Source: Arcobacter acticola
GTDB taxonomy: Bacteria; Campylobacterota; Campylobacteria; Campylobacterales; Arcobacteraceae
DNA length: 64,000 nt
Direction: 5' to 3'
NCBI RefSeq assembly: GCF_013177675.1
Contig: NZ_CP042652.1
Coordinates: forward strand, 248,001-312,000
Shown: positions 4,503 through 56,419 of the stretch, piece after piece
Layout of the letters: each line of letters begins with the position of its first letter
How positions within the stretch are numbered: the stretch's first letter is position 1
Program-made: the position numbers and the translations under genes
The notes under the pieces: model-generated
Told to the model about the DNA's origin: nothing
The model's database searches: none
What the model saw: only the letters and a program-made list of their open reading frames with translations

Positions 4503-5988
4503 CTCAACTTTCGCACATAAAACCTAACTCTTTTTGAGTGAAAGCACTTATCACTGCGATAATTTGAAATAAATCTTTATTATCCTTGACAACATTTTGG
4601 ATTTCAGAGATTTTTGTAAGTATTTGAATAAAAAGTTGCATTGAAATTGCCAGTGTTTCAAGTTCGCACTCTAAATCTCTAAAAAGTTCTCCTAGTGTTT
4701 GTGGCTCATGTTTTATACGGTTTATGTAACTTACAATGTTGTAAGTAAACATAGAAAGAGTGATTTTTCCAATAAGAGCTTCATAGATACGATTTTCTTC
4801 TTTTCCTAAGCCAAACAAGAGTCTTAGATCTTTATAACCTTGCTCAATATTCCATCTCTTTTTATAAGTTTCTAAAATCTCTTTACCTGAAATACTTATA
4901 TCTGTTGATATAAAAACTAATAAATCTTTTCCAGTGTGTAAAAATACTAATTTAACTTTACCAAGGGTACCAAGTTCTAAAACTGAATCGAAATATTTAT
5001 AAGATATCTTTCCATGTTTACCGCTATATTTGTGACGAATATTTTTTAAACTATCATATATTGCATTTAGAGTTTTATATTTACCTTTGAAGTTCCAAAT
5101 AAGCTTATTATTTGGAAGTCTTGCAATTACAGGCATTCCTAAAGTATTTGCTTCTTTTATAAAATTTGGTTTAGCGTACCAGCTATCAACAAGTAGATAA
5201 TCAGCATCAATTCCATTATCTAATGCTCTTTCTAACATCTCAAGAGCTAGAGTATTCTTACCTTTAATAATTTCACGCTTACGTTGATATGCGTTACTTC
5301 TATGATGCAATTTTGCTGTGAAATCTGATGTAGATTTTCTTTTACTATCATTCATTTTTATAGAAAAATCTAATTGAAATGTTGAGTGTGAATCTGCATA
5401 ATTTAGAGACACGATATTTAGTGCATTAATACTTCTATGCTCTTTATTACTCCAGATATATTTACAAGTACCTTCAATAAATTTACCTCTTTTTGGTTCT
5501 ACTGTATCATCGATAATTAGTAAGCGATACTCACCATTTTTATGCAATGGCTTTATCTTTTTTAAAAGTTCTGTAGCACTTAACAATAAAAGTTTACGCC
5601 AGTTATAGCGTTTTTCTTTGATAAATCTATAATATACATCTTTACCATAAGCCTTATCACTATTTTTTATAAAAGTTGATTGTCTTTTTTGCATAATAAG
5701 CATATAAAGAAAGTGTAAAATTATTTGAAATGGTGGATATCCAACTTCTCTCTTAACAAAGTTACTTTGTTTCAGTATTTTTGTGATTTTTATTTCTGAT
5801 AACACTTCGTAAATTGGATTTTTTAATATGCTCTTCATAGCAGTTTCTATATAATTTGCAAGTTCCATAAGATAGACCTTTATAATGATGTTAGTGGTAA
5901 CTTAATTATACTAAAAAGTGCCTACTTATGGGCTTTATTTATCAACTTTAGTTCATGAATTTAGTGGAATCTATGTGCGAAAGTTGAG
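4503..5988 (-). mobile_element. IS4-family insertion sequence, copy 1
   Basis: This 1486-bp element is bounded by 17-bp perfect inverted repeats (CTCAACTTTCGCACATA) at 4503-4519 and 5972-5988. One transposase gene fills most of it, and the transposase stop codon lies inside the terminal repeat. An equal-length copy in opposite orientation is at 31055-32540. No clear target duplication is visible: the flanks are ATAAAAAT on the left and TAAATTTA on the right. The flank on the transposase-start side shares 15 bases with the same flank of copy 2. Confidence 0.92.
4504..5868 (-). CDS. IS4-family transposase (copy 1)
   Basis: A 454-residue DDE transposase. Acidic catalytic segments are visible at LLIIDDTVEPKRGK and LLVDSWYAKP, and the C-terminal YKKRWNIEQGYKDLR matches the Y-(2)-R-(3)-E signature of IS4-type enzymes. 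It differs from the copy at 31175 at one residue (LYMLIMQ here, LYMLVMQ there). The frame is intact, so the enzyme may be active. A TATAAT-type -10 box lies inside the element upstream of the ATG. Confidence 0.93.
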   Translation of the reverse strand: MELANYIETAMKSILKNPIYEVLSEIKITKILKQSNFVKREVGYPPFQIILHFLYMLIMQKRQSTFIKNSDKAYGKDVYYRFIKEKRYNWRKLLLLSATELLKKIKPLHKNGEYRLLIIDDTVEPKRGKFIEGTCKYIWSNKEHRSINALNIVSLNYADSHSTFQLDFSIKMNDSKRKSTSDFTAKLHHRSNAYQRKREIIKGKNTLALEMLERALDNGIDADYLLVDSWYAKPNFIKEANTLGMPVIARLPNNKLIWNFKGKYKTLNAIYDSLKNIRHKYSGKHGKISYKYFDSVLELGTLGKVKLVFLHTGKDLLVFISTDISISGKEILETYKKRWNIEQGYKDLRLLFGLGKEENRIYEALIGKITLSMFTYNIVSYINRIKHEPQTLGELFRDLECELETLAISMQLFIQILTKISEIQNVVKDNKDLFQIIAVISAFTQKELGFMCES

Positions 5989-6017
5989 TAAATTTAATAA
6001 AAGGAATATTTTTCCCT

Positions 6018-9400: not shown

Positions 9401-9417
9401 AATTGCTTATCCTTTTC

Positions 9418-9623
9418 ATTATAAGGTTATAATGTTATATCACTAATTATAATAAGAGATTTATAAAAACCATCTTAATCTAGAAGCACTTTCAGTAGAT
9501 AATATTTTATTCTCTTTTTTATTATAAGGTTATAATGTTATATCACTAATTATAATAAGAGATTTATAAAAACCATCTTAATCTAGAAGCACTTTCAGTA
9601 GATAATATTTTATTCTCTTTTTT
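9418..9623. repeat. two identical 103-bp tandem repeats with glpD promoter
   Basis: Positions 9418-9520 and 9521-9623 are identical as far as I can read, followed by six bases of a third copy. Each unit contains TTATAATGTTAT (9427-9438 and 9530-9541), a near-palindrome, and a minus-strand TATAAT 8 bp upstream of it in the direction of glpD transcription. The duplication therefore doubles both promoter and possible operator. Confidence 0.9.
9446..9451 (-). promoter_or_regulatory. -10 box of glpD
   Basis: TATAAT on the minus strand puts the transcription start at about 9439-9440, just before the palindromic core TTATAATGTTAT at 9427-9438. A protein bound to that core would block the start site, which fits a repressor. 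The same box recurs in the second repeat unit at 9549-9554. Confidence 0.5.
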
Positions 9624-9798
9624 ATTATATTAATTCATTTTTTTAATACAGTCTTAAGTTTATATCTTATAAATCCCATAAAATAGGGATGCTATTTTAA
9701 TGTTACGTTTGAAAAATTCAAAATTATACTAGAATTTGTTGAAACTCAATAATATTTTAAGCATATTTTAAAAGTCTATACGTCACTATTAAAAATAA

Positions 9799-9902: not shown

Positions 9903-10991
9903 ATGTCCTTAGAACTAAGAAACGTATCTATGAAAGTAGATGGACAAACATATATTTACAACACAAACTTAACACTAAAAAAAGGAACCATGAATGTACT
10001 TCTTGGTCGTACTTTATCAGGGAAAACTACATTAATGAGAATTATGGCTGGATTAGATGTACCTACATCTGGTCATATTTTTTGGGAAGGAAAAGATGTT
10101 ACAGGAATGAGAGTACAAGACAGAAAAATAGCAATGGTTTATCAACAATTTATTAATTATCCTTCTATGAGTGTCTATGATAATATAGCTACTCCTTTAC
10201 GAATCATGAAAAAAGATGAAGCATTCATTGATCAAGAAGTTAGAAAAACTGCTAAATTAATGAGACTAGATAATATATTAGATAGAAAGCCCCTTGAACT
10301 TTCTGGTGGACAACAACAAAGATGTGCACTTGCACGTTCATTAGTGAAAGGTTCAGGTCTAGTATTATTAGATGAACCTCTTGCAAATTTAGATTATAAA
10401 TTAAGAGAAGAGTTAAGAGAAGAGATTCCTAAAATGTTTGAAGAATCAGGTGCAATATTTGTTTACGCAACTACTGAACCAGAAGAAGCCTTATTATTAG
10501 GTGGAAATGTAGCAACTTTATGGGAAGGGAATATAACTCAATTTGATGAAACTGCAAAAGTTTATCATAATCCTAATAATGCAATTACTGCTAAAGTTTT
10601 TTCAAATCCTGCAATGAACTTCCTTGATATAAAAAAAGAAGGTGCTTTCATTTATTATGGTAAAAATGAAAAAGTAGAGGCAACAGATGTATTAGAAAAA
10701 TTAGAAGATGGAAACTATTTAGCTGGATTTAGACCAAATCATTTAGAACTTACTAAACATAGTGACAATTCAATAAAATTTTCTGCACATTTAGATGTTA
10801 CAGAGATTACAGGTTCTGAAACTTTTTTACATATGCACCACGATGATGATAATTGGATTGGATTAGTTCATGGTGTTCATGACTTAGAATATAACTCAAA
10901 ATTATCAGTATATTTAGATACACGTCATATTTTTATATTTGCAACAGATGGTGATTTAATTCATACAGCATCTTATGTACAAGAAAGATAG
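9903..10991 (+). CDS. glpS: glycerol ABC transporter, ATP-binding subunit (GlpS-like)
   Basis: A 362-residue ABC ATPase of the MalK/UgpC type. The Walker A is degenerate (GRTLSGKTTLM, with SGKT retained), the signature is LSGGQQQRCALARSL and Walker B is LVLLDEPLANLD. A C-terminal TOBE-like regulatory domain spans about 240-362. A second, different ATPase follows 14 bp downstream, as in the GlpSTPQUV glycerol transporter of Rhizobium leguminosarum, where two distinct ATPases pair. It starts at ATG after AAAGGAG. It is the first gene of the operon running to glpV or glpK. Confidence 0.85.
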   Translation: MSLELRNVSMKVDGQTYIYNTNLTLKKGTMNVLLGRTLSGKTTLMRIMAGLDVPTSGHIFWEGKDVTGMRVQDRKIAMVYQQFINYPSMSVYDNIATPLRIMKKDEAFIDQEVRKTAKLMRLDNILDRKPLELSGGQQQRCALARSLVKGSGLVLLDEPLANLDYKLREELREEIPKMFEESGAIFVYATTEPEEALLLGGNVATLWEGNITQFDETAKVYHNPNNAITAKVFSNPAMNFLDIKKEGAFIYYGKNEKVEATDVLEKLEDGNYLAGFRPNHLELTKHSDNSIKFSAHLDVTEITGSETFLHMHHDDDNWIGLVHGVHDLEYNSKLSVYLDTRHIFIFATDGDLIHTASYVQER

Positions 10992-11005
10992 AAGGAGAAA
11001 ATAAA

Positions 11006-12085
11006 ATGGCAAAAATAACTCTTTCAAATTTAGCACATAGTTATAAAAAGAATCCAAAATCAATTGATGATTACGTACTAAGACCTTTAAATCATGAATG
11101 GGATGATGGTGCAGCATATGCTCTTTTAGGACCATCTGGATGTGGAAAATCAACTTTATTAAATATTATCTCAGGGATATTAACACCTTCAGAAGGAAGT
11201 ATTTTATTTGATGGGAAAGATGTAACATTTGCAGATACTGCAAGTAGGAATATAGCACAAGTTTTTCAGTTTCCTGTAGTTTATGACACAATGACAGTAA
11301 GACAAAACCTAGAATTTCCATTAAGAAATAGAGGTGCAAATGAACAGTATATTCAACAAAGAGTTGGTTCAATTGCCAGAGCAATTAAAGTTGAAGATTT
11401 ACTAGATACAAAAGCTCAAGGATTAACAGCTGATGCTAAACAAAAAATTTCTTTAGGTAGAGGAATGGTTAGAGAAGATGTTAATGCAATTTTATTTGAT
11501 GAACCTTTGACTGTAATTGATCCTCATATGAAATGGGAATTAAGAACTCAACTAAAGGCATTACATAAAGAATTAAAACATACTATGATTTTCGTTACTC
11601 ATGATCAAACAGAAGCATTAACATTTGCAGATAAAGTTGTTGTTATGAATAATGGTTCTGTTTTACAAATTGGAACACCAGAAGAATTATTTAAAAAACC
11701 TGCACATACTTTTGTAGGATATTTTATTGGTTCACCAGGAATGAATGTTTTTGAAGCAAAAATCGAAGAGAATATCGCAGACTTACAAGGTAATAAAATT
11801 AAACTTAATGCTAAATATAAAAATTTAACTGGAAAAGTTGAATTAGGTATTAGACCTGAATTTATTGAATTGTGTGAAGAAGGTGAAGGTATCAAAATTG
11901 AGATTAATAGAATCGAAGATGTTGCTCATCATAAAATTGTAAGAGCAAATTATAACAATAGAAAAGTAAATATTATAGTTCCAGAAGATATAAAAATTAC
12001 GTCAACAATGAATAATATTAGATTTAAAGAAGAAGGTATAAATATTTATGTCGATGGTTGGCTAGTAGAAGGAGATTTATCATGA
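11006..12085 (+). CDS. glpT: glycerol ABC transporter, ATP-binding subunit (GlpT-like)
   Basis: The 359-residue partner ATPase. Walker A is canonical (LLGPSGCGKSTLLN) and Walker B is AILFDEPLTVIDP. The ABC signature is strongly degenerate (LTADAKQKISLGRGM in place of LSGGQ), so the GlpS/GlpT pair would have one canonical and one altered site, as in other heterodimeric ABC systems. A TOBE domain covers about 245-355. The stop overlaps the start of the first permease gene by four bases. The name follows the Rhizobium operon and is not the E. coli glycerol-3-phosphate antiporter. Confidence 0.85.
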   Translation: MAKITLSNLAHSYKKNPKSIDDYVLRPLNHEWDDGAAYALLGPSGCGKSTLLNIISGILTPSEGSILFDGKDVTFADTASRNIAQVFQFPVVYDTMTVRQNLEFPLRNRGANEQYIQQRVGSIARAIKVEDLLDTKAQGLTADAKQKISLGRGMVREDVNAILFDEPLTVIDPHMKWELRTQLKALHKELKHTMIFVTHDQTEALTFADKVVVMNNGSVLQIGTPEELFKKPAHTFVGYFIGSPGMNVFEAKIEENIADLQGNKIKLNAKYKNLTGKVELGIRPEFIELCEEGEGIKIEINRIEDVAHHKIVRANYNNRKVNIIVPEDIKITSTMNNIRFKEEGINIYVDGWLVEGDLS

Positions 12086-29779: not shown

Positions 29780-31054
29780 GCCAAACTCTTCCATCTTTTG
29801 CCATCATTGACACAACACTATTTGGACCATTTGTTCCTGCTTTATATGTTTCCATTGGAGTGATATTATTTTGCCATGCAGATATAATTTTATCAGTCCA
29901 TTTCCAAGCAGCTTTAACTTCATCCAGTCTCATATATAAAGTTGGATTAGCTCTTATTACATCTAAAAGTAATCTTTCATAAGCTTCATTTTTTCTTACA
30001 AAACTTCTTGGGGGATTTAATTCTAAACTAACTTCTTGAAGTTTCATCTTTTCATCAAGTCCTGGTATTTTATGCATAAGATTAAGTGTAATACTTTCAT
30101 CTGGGTAAAAAGATATTACTAATTTATTTGGCATTGTATAATTATCAAAAATTGAATATGGAATAGATTTAAACTGTATTACAATTTCAGAATTCTTACT
30201 TGACATTCTTTTACCAGTTCTTATATAAAAAGGTGTATTACTCCATCTAAAATTATCAATAAAAATTTTTAAAGCTACAAAAGTTTCTGTATCACTTGTA
30301 GATTTACCATCATCCAAATAACCTTGAACTTCTTTTCCATCAATTGTTCCTGCTACATATTGTGCTCGAACAGTATGATCTTTCATATCTTTTTCTTCAA
30401 TATTTCTAAGTGAATTTAAAACTTTTAATTTTTCATCTCTTATTGCATTTGGGTCAAGAGAGTGAGGTGGTTCCATGGCAAGTAAACAAACTAATTGCAT
30501 AAGATGGTTTTGAACCATATCTCTCATCGCTCCATATTCATTATAAAATTCCCATCTACTTTCAACACCTACACTTTCTGATAGTGTAATTTGTATATGA
30601 TCAATATTATTTGCATCCCATAAAGGTACAAACATTTTATTTGAGAATCTTAAAGCTAAAAGATTTTGAACAGTATCTTTACCTAAATAATGATCAATTC
30701 TGTAAATTTGTTCTTCTTTGAAATACCCTAAAACTTTTTCATTAATTTCTTTTGAAGAATCTAAATCTTTTCCAATAGGTTTTTCTAAAACAACCCTTGA
30801 ATTTTCACTTATTAATTTATAATCATTTAGTGATTTACAAATAGTTTCATAAAAATCTGATGAAGTTGAGAAGTAAAATATTCGTTCTTCATTTTGATTA
30901 TTTTTTAATAAATTTTCTAAATTTTTAAACGTTTTTTCTTCTTTAAAATCAATATGGCAGTATTTAATCAAATCTTCAAATTTTTTAGATTTTTCTTCAT
31001 CAAATAATTCTTCTGAATTTAAAAATATTTTCAATTTCTCTTTTATTAAATTTA
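29769..31054 (-). pseudogene. zwf: glucose-6-phosphate dehydrogenase, 5' end removed by IS4 copy 2
   Basis: Residues from VNLIKEKLKIFLNS to the C-terminus match glucose-6-phosphate dehydrogenase, including the substrate site RIDHYLGKDTVQN and VLEKPIGKDLDSS. The family N-terminus with the NADP-binding G-x-x-G-D-L-A motif (about the first 60-70 residues) is missing; the frame runs into the IS4 end at 31055. A TTG at 31034 is the best remaining start but would give 421 residues against about 490. Without the dinucleotide fold the product should be inactive. The lost 5' part is not next to either IS4 copy. Confidence 0.87.
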
Positions 31055-32540
31055 CTCAACTTTCGCACATAGATTCCACTAAATTCATGAACTAAAGTTG
31101 ATAAATAAAGCCCATAAGTAGGCACTTTTTAGTATAATTAAGTTACCACTAACATCATTATAAAGGTCTATCTTATGGAACTTGCAAATTATATAGAAAC
31201 TGCTATGAAGAGCATATTAAAAAATCCAATTTACGAAGTGTTATCAGAAATAAAAATCACAAAAATACTGAAACAAAGTAATTTTGTTAAGAGAGAAGTT
31301 GGATATCCACCATTTCAAATAATTTTACACTTTCTTTATATGCTTGTTATGCAAAAAAGACAATCAACTTTTATAAAAAATAGTGATAAGGCTTATGGTA
31401 AAGATGTATATTATAGATTTATCAAAGAGAAACGTTATAACTGGCGTAAACTTTTATTGTTAAGTGCTACAGAACTTTTAAAAAAGATAAAGCCATTGCA
31501 TAAAAATGGTGAGTATCGCTTACTAATTATCGATGATACAGTAGAACCAAAAAGAGGTAAATTTATTGAAGGTACTTGTAAATATATCTGGAGTAATAAA
31601 GAGCATAGAAGTATTAATGCACTAAATATCGTGTCTCTAAATTATGCAGATTCACACTCAACATTTCAATTAGATTTTTCTATAAAGATGAATGATAGTA
31701 AAAGAAAATCTACATCAGATTTCACAGCAAAATTGCATCATAGAAGTAACGCATATCAACGTAAGCGTGAAATTATTAAAGGTAAGAATACTCTAGCTCT
31801 TGAGATGTTAGAAAGAGCATTAGATAATGGAATTGATGCTGATTATCTACTTGTTGATAGCTGGTACGCTAAACCAAATTTTATAAAAGAAGCAAATACT
31901 TTAGGAATGCCTGTAATTGCAAGACTTCCAAATAATAAGCTCATTTGGAACTTCAAAGGTAAATATAAAACTCTAAATGCAATATATGATAGTTTAAAAA
32001 ATATTCGTCACAAATATAGCGGTAAACATGGAAAGATATCTTATAAATATTTCGATTCAGTTTTAGAACTTGGTACCCTTGGTAAAGTTAAATTAGTATT
32101 TTTACACACTGGAAAAGATTTATTAGTTTTTATATCAACAGATATAAGTATTTCAGGTAAAGAGATTTTAGAAACTTATAAAAAGAGATGGAATATTGAG
32201 CAAGGTTATAAAGATCTAAGACTCTTGTTTGGCTTAGGAAAAGAAGAAAATCGTATCTATGAAGCACTTATTGGAAAAATCACTCTTTCAATGTTTACCT
32301 ACAATATTGTAAGCTATATCAATCGCATAAAGCATGAGCCACAAACACTAGGAGAACTTTTTAGAGATTTAGAGTGCGAACTTGAAACACTGGCAATTTC
32401 AATGCAACTTTTTATTCAAATACTTACAAAAATCTCTGAAATCCAAAATGTTGTCAAGGATAATAAAGATTTATTTCAAATTATCGCAGTGATAAGTGCT
32501 TTCACTCAAAAAGAGTTAGGTTTTATGTGCGAAAGTTGAG
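31055..32540 (+). mobile_element. IS4-family insertion sequence, copy 2
   Basis: A 1486-bp element with the same 17-bp perfect ends as copy 1 (CTCAACTTTCGCACATA at 31055-31071 and its complement at 32524-32540). The left flank is truncated zwf; the right flank is the promoter of the TraT-like gene, whose -10 box starts 41 bp from the element. No target duplication is seen, pointing to a deletion or rearrangement after insertion. Confidence 0.92.
31175..32539 (+). CDS. IS4-family transposase (copy 2)
   Basis: A 454-residue DDE transposase, identical to copy 1 except Val for Ile in LYMLVMQ. The same acidic motifs (IIDDTVEP, LVDSWYAKP, RWNIEQGYKDLR) are present and the frame is intact. Its upstream control region within the element contains a TATAAT box (about 31133-31138). 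Confidence 0.93.
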   Translation: MELANYIETAMKSILKNPIYEVLSEIKITKILKQSNFVKREVGYPPFQIILHFLYMLVMQKRQSTFIKNSDKAYGKDVYYRFIKEKRYNWRKLLLLSATELLKKIKPLHKNGEYRLLIIDDTVEPKRGKFIEGTCKYIWSNKEHRSINALNIVSLNYADSHSTFQLDFSIKMNDSKRKSTSDFTAKLHHRSNAYQRKREIIKGKNTLALEMLERALDNGIDADYLLVDSWYAKPNFIKEANTLGMPVIARLPNNKLIWNFKGKYKTLNAIYDSLKNIRHKYSGKHGKISYKYFDSVLELGTLGKVKLVFLHTGKDLLVFISTDISISGKEILETYKKRWNIEQGYKDLRLLFGLGKEENRIYEALIGKITLSMFTYNIVSYINRIKHEPQTLGELFRDLECELETLAISMQLFIQILTKISEIQNVVKDNKDLFQIIAVISAFTQKELGFMCES

Positions 32541-32555
32541 TAAAAATTAAAAAAA

Positions 32556-32587
32556 GAGTCATTTGAGAGTCATTTGAATTGTATAAT
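32556..32587 (+). promoter_or_regulatory. tandem 11-bp box and -10 element of the TraT-like gene
   Basis: GAGTCATTTGA occurs twice head to tail (32556-32566, 32567-32577), followed after four bases by TATAAT (32582-32587). The same tandem box, at the same distance from a TACAAT, precedes the cas6-like gene. Direct repeats of 11 bp next to a -10 element are the usual layout of OmpR/PhoB-type response regulator sites. Confidence 0.6.
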
Positions 32588-32618: not shown

Positions 32619-33395
32619 ATGAAAAACATAAAAAAATTTGGTTTAAGTATCGCTCTTGCTTCAGTACTTTTTAGTGGTTGTGCAACAACTGAATTACAAA
32701 CTAATGCAAAAATGACACAAAGTGTGTTTATTAATCCAGTGGCTAAAGATAAAAGATTAATATTTGTATCGAGTAAAAATACAAGTGGGCAACAAATAAA
32801 TCTTGAGAAAACAATATTAAATGAATTAGAAGCTAAAGGTTATACTGTTGTTGATGATCCAGAAATGGCTACATATGTTTTGATGATGAATATATTATAT
32901 TGTGATAAAAAACAAGAAAATAATGCAGCAGCGGGAGCAGTTGGAGCGGGAGCTTTAGGTGCAGGAATTGGAGCGTATAATAATAAGGGATTCGGTGCGA
33001 GTGCTGGAATTGGATTGGGTGCAGCATTAGTTGGAGGATTAATCGCTAAAGCTACTGAAGATACAATTTTTCAAATGCAAGTTGATATTGTAATCAGAGA
33101 AAAAGCAAAAGGAAAAGTATATGCATCAAATACAACGGCAGCTGGACAAGCAAGCGTAAATGATTCAAGAAAAGCTGGATTTATGAATGGTTTTGGAGGT
33201 CAAATTAAAAATGCAAATGCATCAGGACAATTAAACTCAAATATTGCAAATGCAAATTCACAACAATATGAAACAGATTATATTGAACATAAAACTATGC
33301 TATTTGCAGAAGCAACAAAAATGAACCTAACATTACCAGAAGCTACACCAATTTTAGAAAAGCAAATATCTAGTCAAATTGCAGGATTATTTTAA
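32619..33395 (+). CDS. TraT-like outer-membrane lipoprotein
   Basis: A 258-residue lipoprotein. The signal peptide ends in a lipobox (VLFSGC, Cys about 22), followed by ATTELQTNAKMTQSVFI, resembling the start of mature TraT. A glycine/alanine-rich hydrophobic stretch (AAAGAVGAGALGAGIGA and GIGLGAALVGGLIA) matches the TraT membrane region. TraT proteins mediate surface exclusion on plasmids and complement resistance; chromosomal relatives have unknown roles. I start at ATG 32619 after AGGAG, since the lipoprotein signal begins there. Transcribed alone from the tandem-box promoter. Confidence 0.78.
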   Translation: MKNIKKFGLSIALASVLFSGCATTELQTNAKMTQSVFINPVAKDKRLIFVSSKNTSGQQINLEKTILNELEAKGYTVVDDPEMATYVLMMNILYCDKKQENNAAAGAVGAGALGAGIGAYNNKGFGASAGIGLGAALVGGLIAKATEDTIFQMQVDIVIREKAKGKVYASNTTAAGQASVNDSRKAGFMNGFGGQIKNANASGQLNSNIANANSQQYETDYIEHKTMLFAEATKMNLTLPEATPILEKQISSQIAGLF

Positions 33396-46851: not shown

Positions 46852-48368
<1,517 letters not shown>

Positions 48369-48472
48369 CAGAGATAAGAGATCAGATTCGTTTCTGATTT
48401 CAAATATCAAATAAAGAAAATGGCAAAGATTTTATATATTCGGTTTATAAAGATTATTTAAATAGGTAGTAG

Positions 48473-48549
48473 GGGCCTATAGCTCAGCTGGCTAGAGCGC
48501 TCGACTGATAATCGTGAGGTCCCAGGTTCAAGTCCTGGTAGGCCCACCA
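48473..48549 (+). tRNA. tRNA-Ile(GAT)
   Basis: A 77-base cloverleaf in the 16S-23S spacer: acceptor GGGCCTA/TAGGCCC, anticodon GAT in loop CTGATAA, encoded ACCA. Standard spacer tRNA. Confidence 0.97.
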
Positions 48550-48644
48550 TGATAATCTTATAATGTTGAATGTTAAATTTTAAATGTTGAATTAATTTTT
48601 TTAATTCAAAATTCAGAATTTAGAATTCAAAATTATTAGTCCCA

Positions 48645-48720
48645 GGGGAATTAGCTCAGCTGGGAGAGCGCCTGCTTTGCACGCAGGAGGTCAGCGGTTC
48701 GATCCCGCTATTCTCCACCA
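48645..48720 (+). tRNA. tRNA-Ala(TGC)
   Basis: A 76-base cloverleaf: acceptor GGGGAAT/ATTCTCC with one G-T, anticodon TGC in loop TTTGCAC, encoded ACCA. Second spacer tRNA; between it and tRNA-Ile lies an AATTCAAAATTC-type repeat. Confidence 0.97.
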
Positions 48721-49145
48721 CCTATTTTAGAGTTCAGTAATCAGAGTTCAGTGCTCAGAAGATAGAATTTAAAGTTCAGTTATAATAATTTAGCTTGAGA
48801 GTAAAATTAAATATAAGTTCAAATTAGTTTGAATTTATATTTGATTTTCGAATCAAAACTTTTAGAGAAATCTAAAATGATATTTAAAAATATAATGTTA
48901 AAGTCTTTAATTTTTTCGTTTAATTTACGTTCGAAAGAACATAATTTAAAAACAAAAATTTAATTATCTAAAAATTGTTACCTTGAAAAAACTTGTTTTT
49001 TTAAGATAATTTGAAATAGATAGAACACAACTAATTTTATTAAGATGTAAGAGTTGATGATTAGATTCATTAATTTAAATATGTTTAATAAGATAGTAGC
49101 CAAAGAATAATTATCAAAAATGCGACAGAATTTAATTCTGTTTAT
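48721..49145 (+). other. 16S-23S spacer after tRNA-Ala
   Basis: A 425-bp gene-free, A/T-rich spacer. It starts with degenerate repeats of the type AGTTCAGTGCTCAG (48727-48780) and ends with the 5' arm of the 23S processing stem (about 49079-49109), which pairs with 52103-52132. No further RNA gene is seen. Confidence 0.7.
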
Positions 49146-52099
<2,954 letters not shown>

Positions 52100-52102
52100 T
52101 AT

Positions 52103-52132
52103 ATTCTTTGGTTTACTATCTTATTAAATATA
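52103..52132 (+). other. 3' arm of the 23S processing stem
   Basis: ATTCTTTGGTTTACTATC and the following TTATTAAATAT pair with ATATGTTTAATAAG-ATAGTAGCCAAAGAAT at 49079-49108 with few mismatches, forming the RNase III stem that releases pre-23S rRNA. Confidence 0.75.
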
Positions 52133-52280
52133 TGAGAAACGTTATTAAAAGTGAACTGCTTCACTTTTATAGTTTCGGAACCGTAGCTTTTATGGTTATG
52201 CATAAGCGCAGGATATATTTAATAAACAAATTGTGTTTATTTTAAGACTTTAACATTATTTTTTCTTAACTCTAGTATAG

Positions 52281-52367
52281 AGTTGAGTGTTAAGTATAAT
52301 TTACTTAATTTGGGTTTTAATTCAAAATTCAAAATTAAGCATTCAAAATTAAATTTAACACTCAACT
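52281..52367 (+). repeat. inverted repeat before 5S enclosing AATTCAAAATTC repeats
   Basis: GTTGAGTGTTAA (from 52281) and TTAACACTCAAC (about 52356-52367) are perfect 12-bp arms directly before the 5S gene. The loop holds three copies of an ATTCAAAATT-type motif. It may be a processing hairpin. Confidence 0.55.
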
Positions 52368-52486
52368 TTGCTGGTGGCTATAGAGAAGTGGAAATACCCA
52401 GTCCCATTCCGAACCTGGAAGTCAAGCACTTCATCGCCGATAATACTGCCGGGTCCCCTGGTGGAAACGTAGGCCGCTGCCAGCTC
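52368..52486 (+). rRNA. 5S ribosomal RNA
   Basis: About 119 bases. Terminal stem GCTGG/CCAGC, the loop C block CCCATTCCGAACCTGGAAGTCAAGC and the loop E/D region GCCGATAATACTGC are typical. Frames read across it are not genes. Confidence 0.93.
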
Positions 52487-55572: not shown

Positions 55573-56310
55573 TTAAGCTCCTCTACCTAAACAAAACCCT
55601 CCACCAAAACTACTTTTTTCTCCAAGTCCAACTCCTAATGATAAGAATGCTAACTTTTGAGATAAGTCATCTTTTTTTGGAACAATTTTAAATTTATTAC
55701 CTATTAATCTAACTAATTTTTCTTTTTGATTTCTTACTGTTTTAAAATATATTGATTGAGGCTTTTGATTTTTGATTTCTATTTTATCAATAAAATTATC
55801 CATAATATCTCTATCGTCAGGATAAAATAGTTTTAATTTTTTCTCTAAATTTTTTTGAAGTTGATTTTGTAATATTTCAATATCACCATTATAATCCATA
55901 GACCAATAAAGTTGTCTTCCATTATCATCTTTTCTTTCAGATACAATTACAGGCGTTGCACTATAAAGTTCTTTAATAAAAAATTGATCAATTTCTTTTT
56001 TTATAGCTGATAAAACTATTAAAAAACTATTATTCATATTTAAAATAAGAGCTTTTTCTAACTCAGTAATAAACTCTTCATCTATACTTCTTATAACAAA
56101 TTCATAAATATTATTTTGTTTATAAATCTTGTCATTTTCTGTTGGATAAAAATTTCCAAAACAGTAGTTTTTTATTGAAGTATCTTTATTTTTGTAAATT
56201 TCATTTTGATATATAGAATAATTTAAATATTTTGATAGGACATCAAAACTATTTTTTAACTCTATATTTGTTTTTAAATATGCCTTGCATTTAAGTTCGA
56301 ATATTTTCAT
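55573..56310 (-). CDS. cas6: Cas6-like CRISPR RNA endoribonuclease
   Basis: A 245-residue protein with the Cas6 plan: an N-terminal ferredoxin-like fold (MKIFELKCKAYLKTNIELKNSFDVLSKYL, YEFVIRSIDEEFITELEKAL) and a C-terminal glycine-rich loop LGVGLGEKSSFGGGFCLG that binds crRNA repeats. Cas6 cuts pre-crRNA. Here it stands alone: no array, cas1/cas2 or effector gene is in the window, and copy B of the IS lies 19 bp past its stop. Its promoter carries the tandem 11-bp box. The family call rests on the C-terminal loop and general plan. Confidence 0.75.
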   Translation of the reverse strand: MKIFELKCKAYLKTNIELKNSFDVLSKYLNYSIYQNEIYKNKDTSIKNYCFGNFYPTENDKIYKQNNIYEFVIRSIDEEFITELEKALILNMNNSFLIVLSAIKKEIDQFFIKELYSATPVIVSERKDDNGRQLYWSMDYNGDIEILQNQLQKNLEKKLKLFYPDDRDIMDNFIDKIEIKNQKPQSIYFKTVRNQKEKLVRLIGNKFKIVPKKDDLSQKLAFLSLGVGLGEKSSFGGGFCLGRGA

Positions 56311-56359: not shown

Positions 56360-56391
56360 ATTGTATCTAACAAATGACTCTCAAATGACTC
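56360..56391 (-). promoter_or_regulatory. tandem 11-bp box and -10 element of cas6
   Basis: On the minus strand GAGTCATTTGA (56391-56381) is followed directly by GAGTCATTTG (56380-56371), then five bases, then TACAAT (56365-56360). The plus-strand box at 32556 has the same two units and the same distance to its -10. The A-rich flank before it (AAAAAAA) is shared too. Confidence 0.6.
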
Positions 56392-56419
56392 TTTTTTTGA
56401 TTTTACTAAATTTTAAATA

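Follow-up and report, generated by a model that had tools for sequence, protein, structure and literature searches.

A recurring promoter box before anti-phage and surface genes in Arcobacter acticola and related bacteria suggests that a single regulator may switch on barriers to foreign DNA together

The window, i.e. the whole stretch of DNA analysed here, comprises 64,000 nucleotides of Arcobacter acticola (G000:C1:248001-312000), the genome of which (G000) is a single contig of 3.02 Mb. It contains a gene for a TraT-like lipoprotein and, on the opposite strand, a gene for a Cas6-like protein, each preceded by an A-tract, a tandem box and a -10 element (Table 1). Searching the window for the 21-mer of the box with up to three mismatches returned these two matches, and matches were obtained in 0 of 100 shuffled sequences. 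The earlier note had described a head-to-tail tandem before TATAAT at 32582, the same tandem before TACAAT at 56365-56360 on the other strand, five bases between box and -10 element at both places, a common run of A's upstream, and downstream genes of traT and cas6 type. All of this agrees with the sequence, the coordinates being exact at both sites and the downstream genes matching the TraT and Cas6 families.

Table 1. Positions of the features discussed, in window coordinates unless a locus is named
Feature	Position	Strand	Basis or detail
A-tract directly 5' of the traT box	32549..32555	+	7 A's
Tandem box GAGTCATTTG-A-GAGTCATTTG before traT, half-sites with an 11-bp period	32556..32576	+	sequence, pattern search
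-10 element TATAAT, 5 bp past the box	32582..32587	+	spacer aattg
traT-like lipoprotein gene	32619..33395	+	PF05818, E 1.1e-66
A-tract directly 5' of the cas6 box	56392..56398	-	7 A's
Tandem box before cas6	56371..56391	-	sequence, pattern search
-10 element TACAAT, 5 bp past the box	56360..56365	-	spacer ttaga
Solitary cas6 gene	55573..56310	-	PF01881, E 5.9e-7; PADLOC Cas6b, E 1.4e-62
Insertion sequence (IS), DDE transposase at 31175-32539, outside the traT box	31040..32540	+	second copy, transposase families
Box followed by a run of four genes: 260-aa protein, lipoprotein-like protein, Trans_reg_C regulator, ABC transporter	L261 4685-8504 (G083)

The cas6 gene of the window stands alone. 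Pfam recognised no other cas gene among the neighbouring ORFs, and neither a GTTT-AAAC pattern search nor TRF detected a CRISPR array in the window, leaving this cas6 with neither the adjacent cas genes nor the array that mark a CRISPR-Cas operon. A solitary cas6 is present in four genomes of the genus, i.e. in the window and at L059 2547-3290, L093 4394-5131 and L100 4417-5160, and inspection of the latter three loci by eye revealed no other cas gene nearby. In all four the same large gene adjoins cas6, which Pfam reads as MFS-acyltransferase-AMP ligase in the window. Judged from these four loci, this is a conserved solitary Cas6. Downstream of the cas6 region the window holds a complete rRNA operon (46852-52485; 16S, two tRNAs, 23S, 5S), and at 9413-9629 there is a near-perfect tandem duplication with a 103-bp unit in 2.1 copies (99% matches).

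A scan of the whole genome and of its relatives for the tandem near a -10 element, as the earlier note had proposed, yielded 11 sites in the own genome and sites in 14 of 104 genomes of the family. In the own genome the 21-mer GAGTCATTTG-n-GAGTCATTTG (up to three mismatches) matched at five positions on the forward and six on the reverse strand, the reversed control pattern matched nowhere, and a pattern with free positions plus TANAAT, again with up to three mismatches, returned the identical 11 sites and no others. TAnAAT lies exactly 5 bp past the second unit at each of the 11 sites, and the boxes point toward gene starts. At nine sites a gene of at least 70 codons starts 16-53 nt past the inferred transcription start, at the remaining two the gene starts at 148 and 288 nt.

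Promoter anatomy was analysed on 66 distinct sites in loci fetched from G061, G083, G090 and the own genus. These sites had been picked by their two repeats alone, at most three mismatches being allowed, with the A-tract, the -10 element and the extended -10 positions unused; matches lacking a -10 element were left out (loci L079 in G001, L080 in G025 and L081 in G011), and coding-type matches in G018, G019 and G021 lay outside the fetched regions. TA.AAT follows the box at 5 bp in 56 sites and at 6 bp in seven, a weaker -10 element at 5 bp being present in the other three. Upstream, A occupies position -3 in 66/66 sites and positions -4 and -5 in 64/66 each, and the extended -10 element has its T in 48/66 and its G in 46/66. 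Comparison of the promoters of cas6 (five genomes) and traT (three genomes) shows box, A-tract and -10 element to be better kept than the flanks, which is the picture that a binding site plus core promoter would be expected to give.

Among the 31 genomes of the own genus 14 contain the plain 21-mer, and G011, G019 and G025 fall out if a -10 element is required. This stringent pattern thus retains 11 own-genus genomes, to which G061, G083 and G090 add the remainder of the 14 family genomes, and its control had no match in any genome. G083, a member of another genus, has 11 sites, and 18 with a looser pattern versus one for the control. Scattered matches to the looser pattern were found in 74 of the 104 genomes, and since controls also match in a good number of genomes, single matches of this kind mean little. 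The box also drifts. In genus g9, among the matches listed for G053-G063, GAGACA forms the second half-site in 18 of 31 rows and both half-sites in 12 of 31, and in G010 drifted GAGTCA/GAGTCT boxes precede cas6 and traT. When the drifted regions of g9 and G010 were fetched, 17 of 20 had a gene of at least 70 codons starting no more than 300 nt behind the box. In G029, as in G010, the traT homolog is likewise preceded by a box. The cas6 loci of relatives were found via the box, and the count of six genomes for them leaves cas6 genes lacking a box uncounted. The absence of conservation in relatives that the earlier note had considered is not what we find, as the box is kept at cas6 and at traT. 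Beyond the family, an exact search through 84,980 species genomes, from which records close to the window were possibly excluded, gave nine stretches in only four MAGs (three titled Aliarcobacter, one bacterium), and a viral collection gave a single contig with a box site (L435). On this contig, which encodes a phage-type GPA replication protein, the box precedes a gene for SLATT_5, a 2TM effector family (10884-11563), beside an Mrr-like gene.

Of the 11 first genes behind the boxes of the own genome, four encode TraT, Cas6, Wzz and one protein without known function, and a fifth encodes a protein that its N-terminus marks as lipoprotein-like. Three others head longer runs: a WYL regulator gene leads into one for a PD-(D/E)XK protein, DUF2779 into an AAA protein and McrBC (PF10117), and HsdR into AbiD and HsdM. 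The remaining three are a PAS protein and the two distant genes, for DUF1232 at 288 nt and a type IV restriction-like ResIII/PLD helicase at 148 nt. Defence genes behind the box in relatives comprise type I HsdR (G016), HsdM (G083), Mrr and HNH nucleases (G029), NERD-UvrD (G005) and an OLD-like AAA ATPase (G009), and surface genes comprise Wzz, TraT, many lipoproteins, assigned by their N-termini, and, in G083 and g9, UDP-sugar enzymes and a glycosyltransferase. Two target classes, defence and surface, thus recur behind the boxes. Further targets are metallophosphoesterases in G009, G018, G020, G021 and G029, which we take to resemble SbcD, and WYL genes in G000, G001, G005 and G090, with a diverged box in G003 and another WYL gene in G029. 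A small RNase H-like protein is encoded behind box-like sites in two genomes (L067 3938-4399, by PF13456; L425 4330-4806, alike by eye). Cas9 of G083 lies behind a weaker box and was set aside as support for a regulon.

Within the own genome alone, the enrichment of defence genes is modest and no more than suggestive. PADLOC matched four of the 11 first genes at E<=1e-10 versus two of 20 control genes (one-sided P 0.10), the controls being picks from the ORF list of the window and both control hits being to the mad3 ATPase at about E 1e-17; at a strict cut-off, chosen after the scores were visible, the ratio was 3/11 versus 0/20 (P 0.037). The case for defence genes in the regulon therefore rests on recurrence across genomes, since non-orthologous defence families stand behind the box in eight of them (G000, G001, G005, G009, G016, G018, G029 and G083), the control genes having been drawn from the own genome only. 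The earlier note had seen in the two window sites a regulon that joins a surface lipoprotein with CRISPR RNA processing. Its first part stands, as spacing, orientation, the unrelated downstream genes and conservation strongly support a regulon behind the tandem box. Its second part is too narrow, because cas6 is solitary and the targets include type I and IV restriction, other defence, polysaccharide and lipoprotein genes.

We consider it probable that the tandem box is an activator site in sigma-70 extended -10 promoters of a regulon of barrier genes, its likeliest reader being of the OmpR/PhoB type. The half-sites GAGTCA(TTTG), arranged head to tail and one helical turn apart, would lie on a single face of the DNA from about -38 to -18, and a bound dimer would touch RNA polymerase beside the extended -10 element, substituting for the -35 contact. 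Binding of the activator, most likely a winged-helix protein of the OmpR/PhoB type, would start short-leader transcripts of surface barrier genes (TraT, lipoproteins, polysaccharide control) and of intracellular ones (Cas6, type I and IV restriction, nucleases and other defence genes), which might in this way be expressed jointly. Incoming defence operons, of which one sits on a mobile element, would bring the box and so join host control. As to the signal, our guess is a disturbance of the envelope, e.g. by contact with a phage or a conjugation partner.

The assignment to the OmpR/PhoB type, which the earlier note had made from the geometry, is plausible: the geometry matches well, with direct half-sites 10-11 bp apart and a fixed spot directly before the -10 element, overlapping the -35 region (59/66 sites at 5 bp), yet no profiled regulator tracks the box. 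In the Pho box of Escherichia coli, PhoB binds tandem 11-bp units in place of a -35 contact. The GTCAT core of the tandem box resembles the Pho box, the distance to the -10 element being about 2 bp shorter here than in pstS, and no phosphate-acquisition gene was recognised among the box targets run against Pfam. The nearest documented case for the geometry appears to be the promoters of HP1043 (HsrA), an OmpR-type orphan activator of Helicobacter pylori, for which two papers describe direct TTTAAG hexamers, with a 5-bp spacer and an 11-bp period, lying just upstream of the -10 element, as well as activation in vitro (PMC8345958, PMC5253667). The likeness thus lies in two direct hexamers, their 11-bp period and their place immediately 5' of the -10 element. 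HP1043 reads a TTTAAG consensus and serves essential housekeeping targets, whereas the tandem box has GAGTCA and accessory defence and surface targets, and with half-sites of GAGTCATTTG it does not conform to the TTTAAG-N5-TTTAAG pattern of HP1043/CosR.

In function, regulation of CRISPR-Cas by BaeR seems to be the closest precedent, for one system. BaeSR activates cas genes in E. coli. In Acinetobacter BaeR lowers Cas3 via H-NS, as far as the available text of PMC12625773 tells; what this shares with the regulon proposed here is an envelope-stress regulator of the OmpR family acting on a defence system, and what differs is that one CRISPR system is concerned there and one cis-box at many defence systems and surface genes here. 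Literature searches on Arcobacter CRISPR, restriction, two-component systems and regulons and on coordinated defence regulons gave no report of the box among the matches listed; for Aliarcobacter promoters and response regulators there were no matches, and for GAGTCATTTG none of the matches listed concerned such a box by title.

The own genome has 38 Trans_reg_C matches. Candidates for the reader were short-listed by comparing its regulators with those of G003, G004, G018, G029 and G083, the sets of G018 and G083 missing a few members, and three response regulators, 1626123, 202409 and 1002015, were profiled across 104 genomes. Co-occurrence with the box was evaluated in the 28 own-genus genomes that are at least 90% complete, 11 of them positive and 17 negative by the stringent pattern. 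Regulator 1002015 is present in 8/11 box-positive and 3/17 box-negative genomes and is missing from the clearly boxed G001. Regulator 202409, whose gene neighbour we take to be LuxS-like, is present at 79% identity or more in 5/11 and 0/17, homologs of 56-58% identity occurring in the box-negative G002 and G013 as well. For both, the association with box status in the genus has P ~0.005, uncorrected for the choice of candidates and for relatedness, and neither can be the sole reader because both are absent from clearly boxed genomes. Regulator 1626123, with a recognition helix that we assume to be PhoB-like, is present in 2/11 and 0/17. At 78-88% identity it is found in nine g9 genomes, among which only G061 is box-positive, and the box-positive G001, G005, G009, G020, G021 and G029 have just a paralog of 62-64% identity; its distribution does not track the box, and it was rejected as reader. 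Thus none of the three response regulators profiled across the 104 genomes occurs wherever the box does, and neither does the WYL gene.

Regulator 1754650 has orthologs in G000, G003, G018, G029 and G083 (55-67% identical), its best match in G004 being 33% identical, and in G083 the ortholog sits in an operon behind the box. We regard it as, at best, an unlikely candidate for the reader. The Trans_reg_C regulator of the four-gene run at L261 (Table 1) has no receiver match in Pfam, and the succession of lipoprotein, regulator and transporter recurs without such a box in G000, G018 and G029. In four g9 genomes (L406, L410, L412 and L413) the gene behind a drifted tandem box encodes a small receiver-like protein, which was dismissed as reader as blastp against the own regulators recognised no DNA-binding part. 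By our estimate, regulator genes occur near box loci at about chance frequency. Orthologs of the WYL protein, found by protein (at least 68% identity) and thus selected independently of the box, are encoded in seven genomes. The box precedes those of G000, G001 and G005, and in G003 a diverged form with a 6-bp gap takes its place; for G004, G008 and G022 the 110 bases inspected upstream contain none. As the WYL orthologs differ in having the box, the box is gained or lost at orthologous genes. G004 and G008 have no plain or stringent matches and only two three-mismatch matches each under the looser pattern, and the box-rich G018 (91% complete) has no WYL match. Since the WYL protein is encoded even where credible boxes are lacking, as in G004 and G008, it is to be seen as a target and not as the reader.

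Three other explanations bear on these sites. Both window sites could be a piece of a dispersed repeat or the end of an insertion sequence, as 15 bases separate the end of the IS from the traT box and cas6 has a transposase gene downstream of it. The second copy of the IS, at 4503-6003 in opposite orientation and 98.9% identical over 1501 bp, carries no box, however, and therefore the box is not transposon sequence; moreover, the 11 own sites have little in common outside A-tract, box and -10 element, and they are oriented to gene starts. This explanation is already refuted by the sequence and has next to no probability left, and with it falls the longer repeat away from promoters that the earlier note had considered. 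The box might also belong to a general stress or growth-state regulon responding to nutrients, surface sensing or DNA damage, the accessory targets of which would be rich in defence genes by nature. The metallophosphoesterases of five genomes, the PAS proteins, the sensor kinases and small receiver-like proteins found as targets in another genus, and the many target lipoproteins without known role are consistent with such a regulon, and the same lipoproteins, PAS proteins and metallophosphoesterases mean that the label 'barrier' may be too narrow. We nonetheless consider it unlikely in view of the non-orthologous restriction, CRISPR and other defence families in eight genomes, although control genes were compared in the own genome only.

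Finally, the box could be the operator of a repressor, a dimer of which blocks RNA polymerase until a signal arrives, much as WYL repressors probably act at some defence systems, the boxed WYL gene encoding an autoregulated repressor. Direct repeats beside the -10 element are typical of activators, and palindromes are usual for homodimeric repressors, so that the arrangement of the box argues for an activator. The WYL gene is the only transcription factor found repeatedly behind the box, and the available part of PMC9122589 describes a WYL protein, BrxR, that belongs to its own BREX system and regulates it, a similar case of transcriptional control at defence loci. BrxR, on that account, is tied to its own system, whereas the WYL gene here does not track the box, being missing from G018 and present in G004 and G008. 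Repression is accordingly an improbable reading, and activation of barrier genes from the tandem box is the one that we favour. In its most far-reaching form, which we hold tentatively and with somewhat less than even confidence, it would amount to a dedicated barrier-immunity regulon of the Arcobacteraceae, in which one activator governs surface exclusion, polysaccharide remodelling and intracellular defences, mobile islands evolve the box, and box and reader co-evolve (GAGTCA, GAGTCT, GAGACA).

In the usual view, each defence system is regulated on its own. If the activator reading is true, the host would command its immune repertoire as a unit via one cis-box, spanning restriction, cas, Abi-type, mobile effector and surface genes, and acquired islands would succeed partly through carrying the right promoter. 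The box would then also provide a sequence rule for finding new defence genes, as uncharacterised lipoproteins and operons lie behind boxes.
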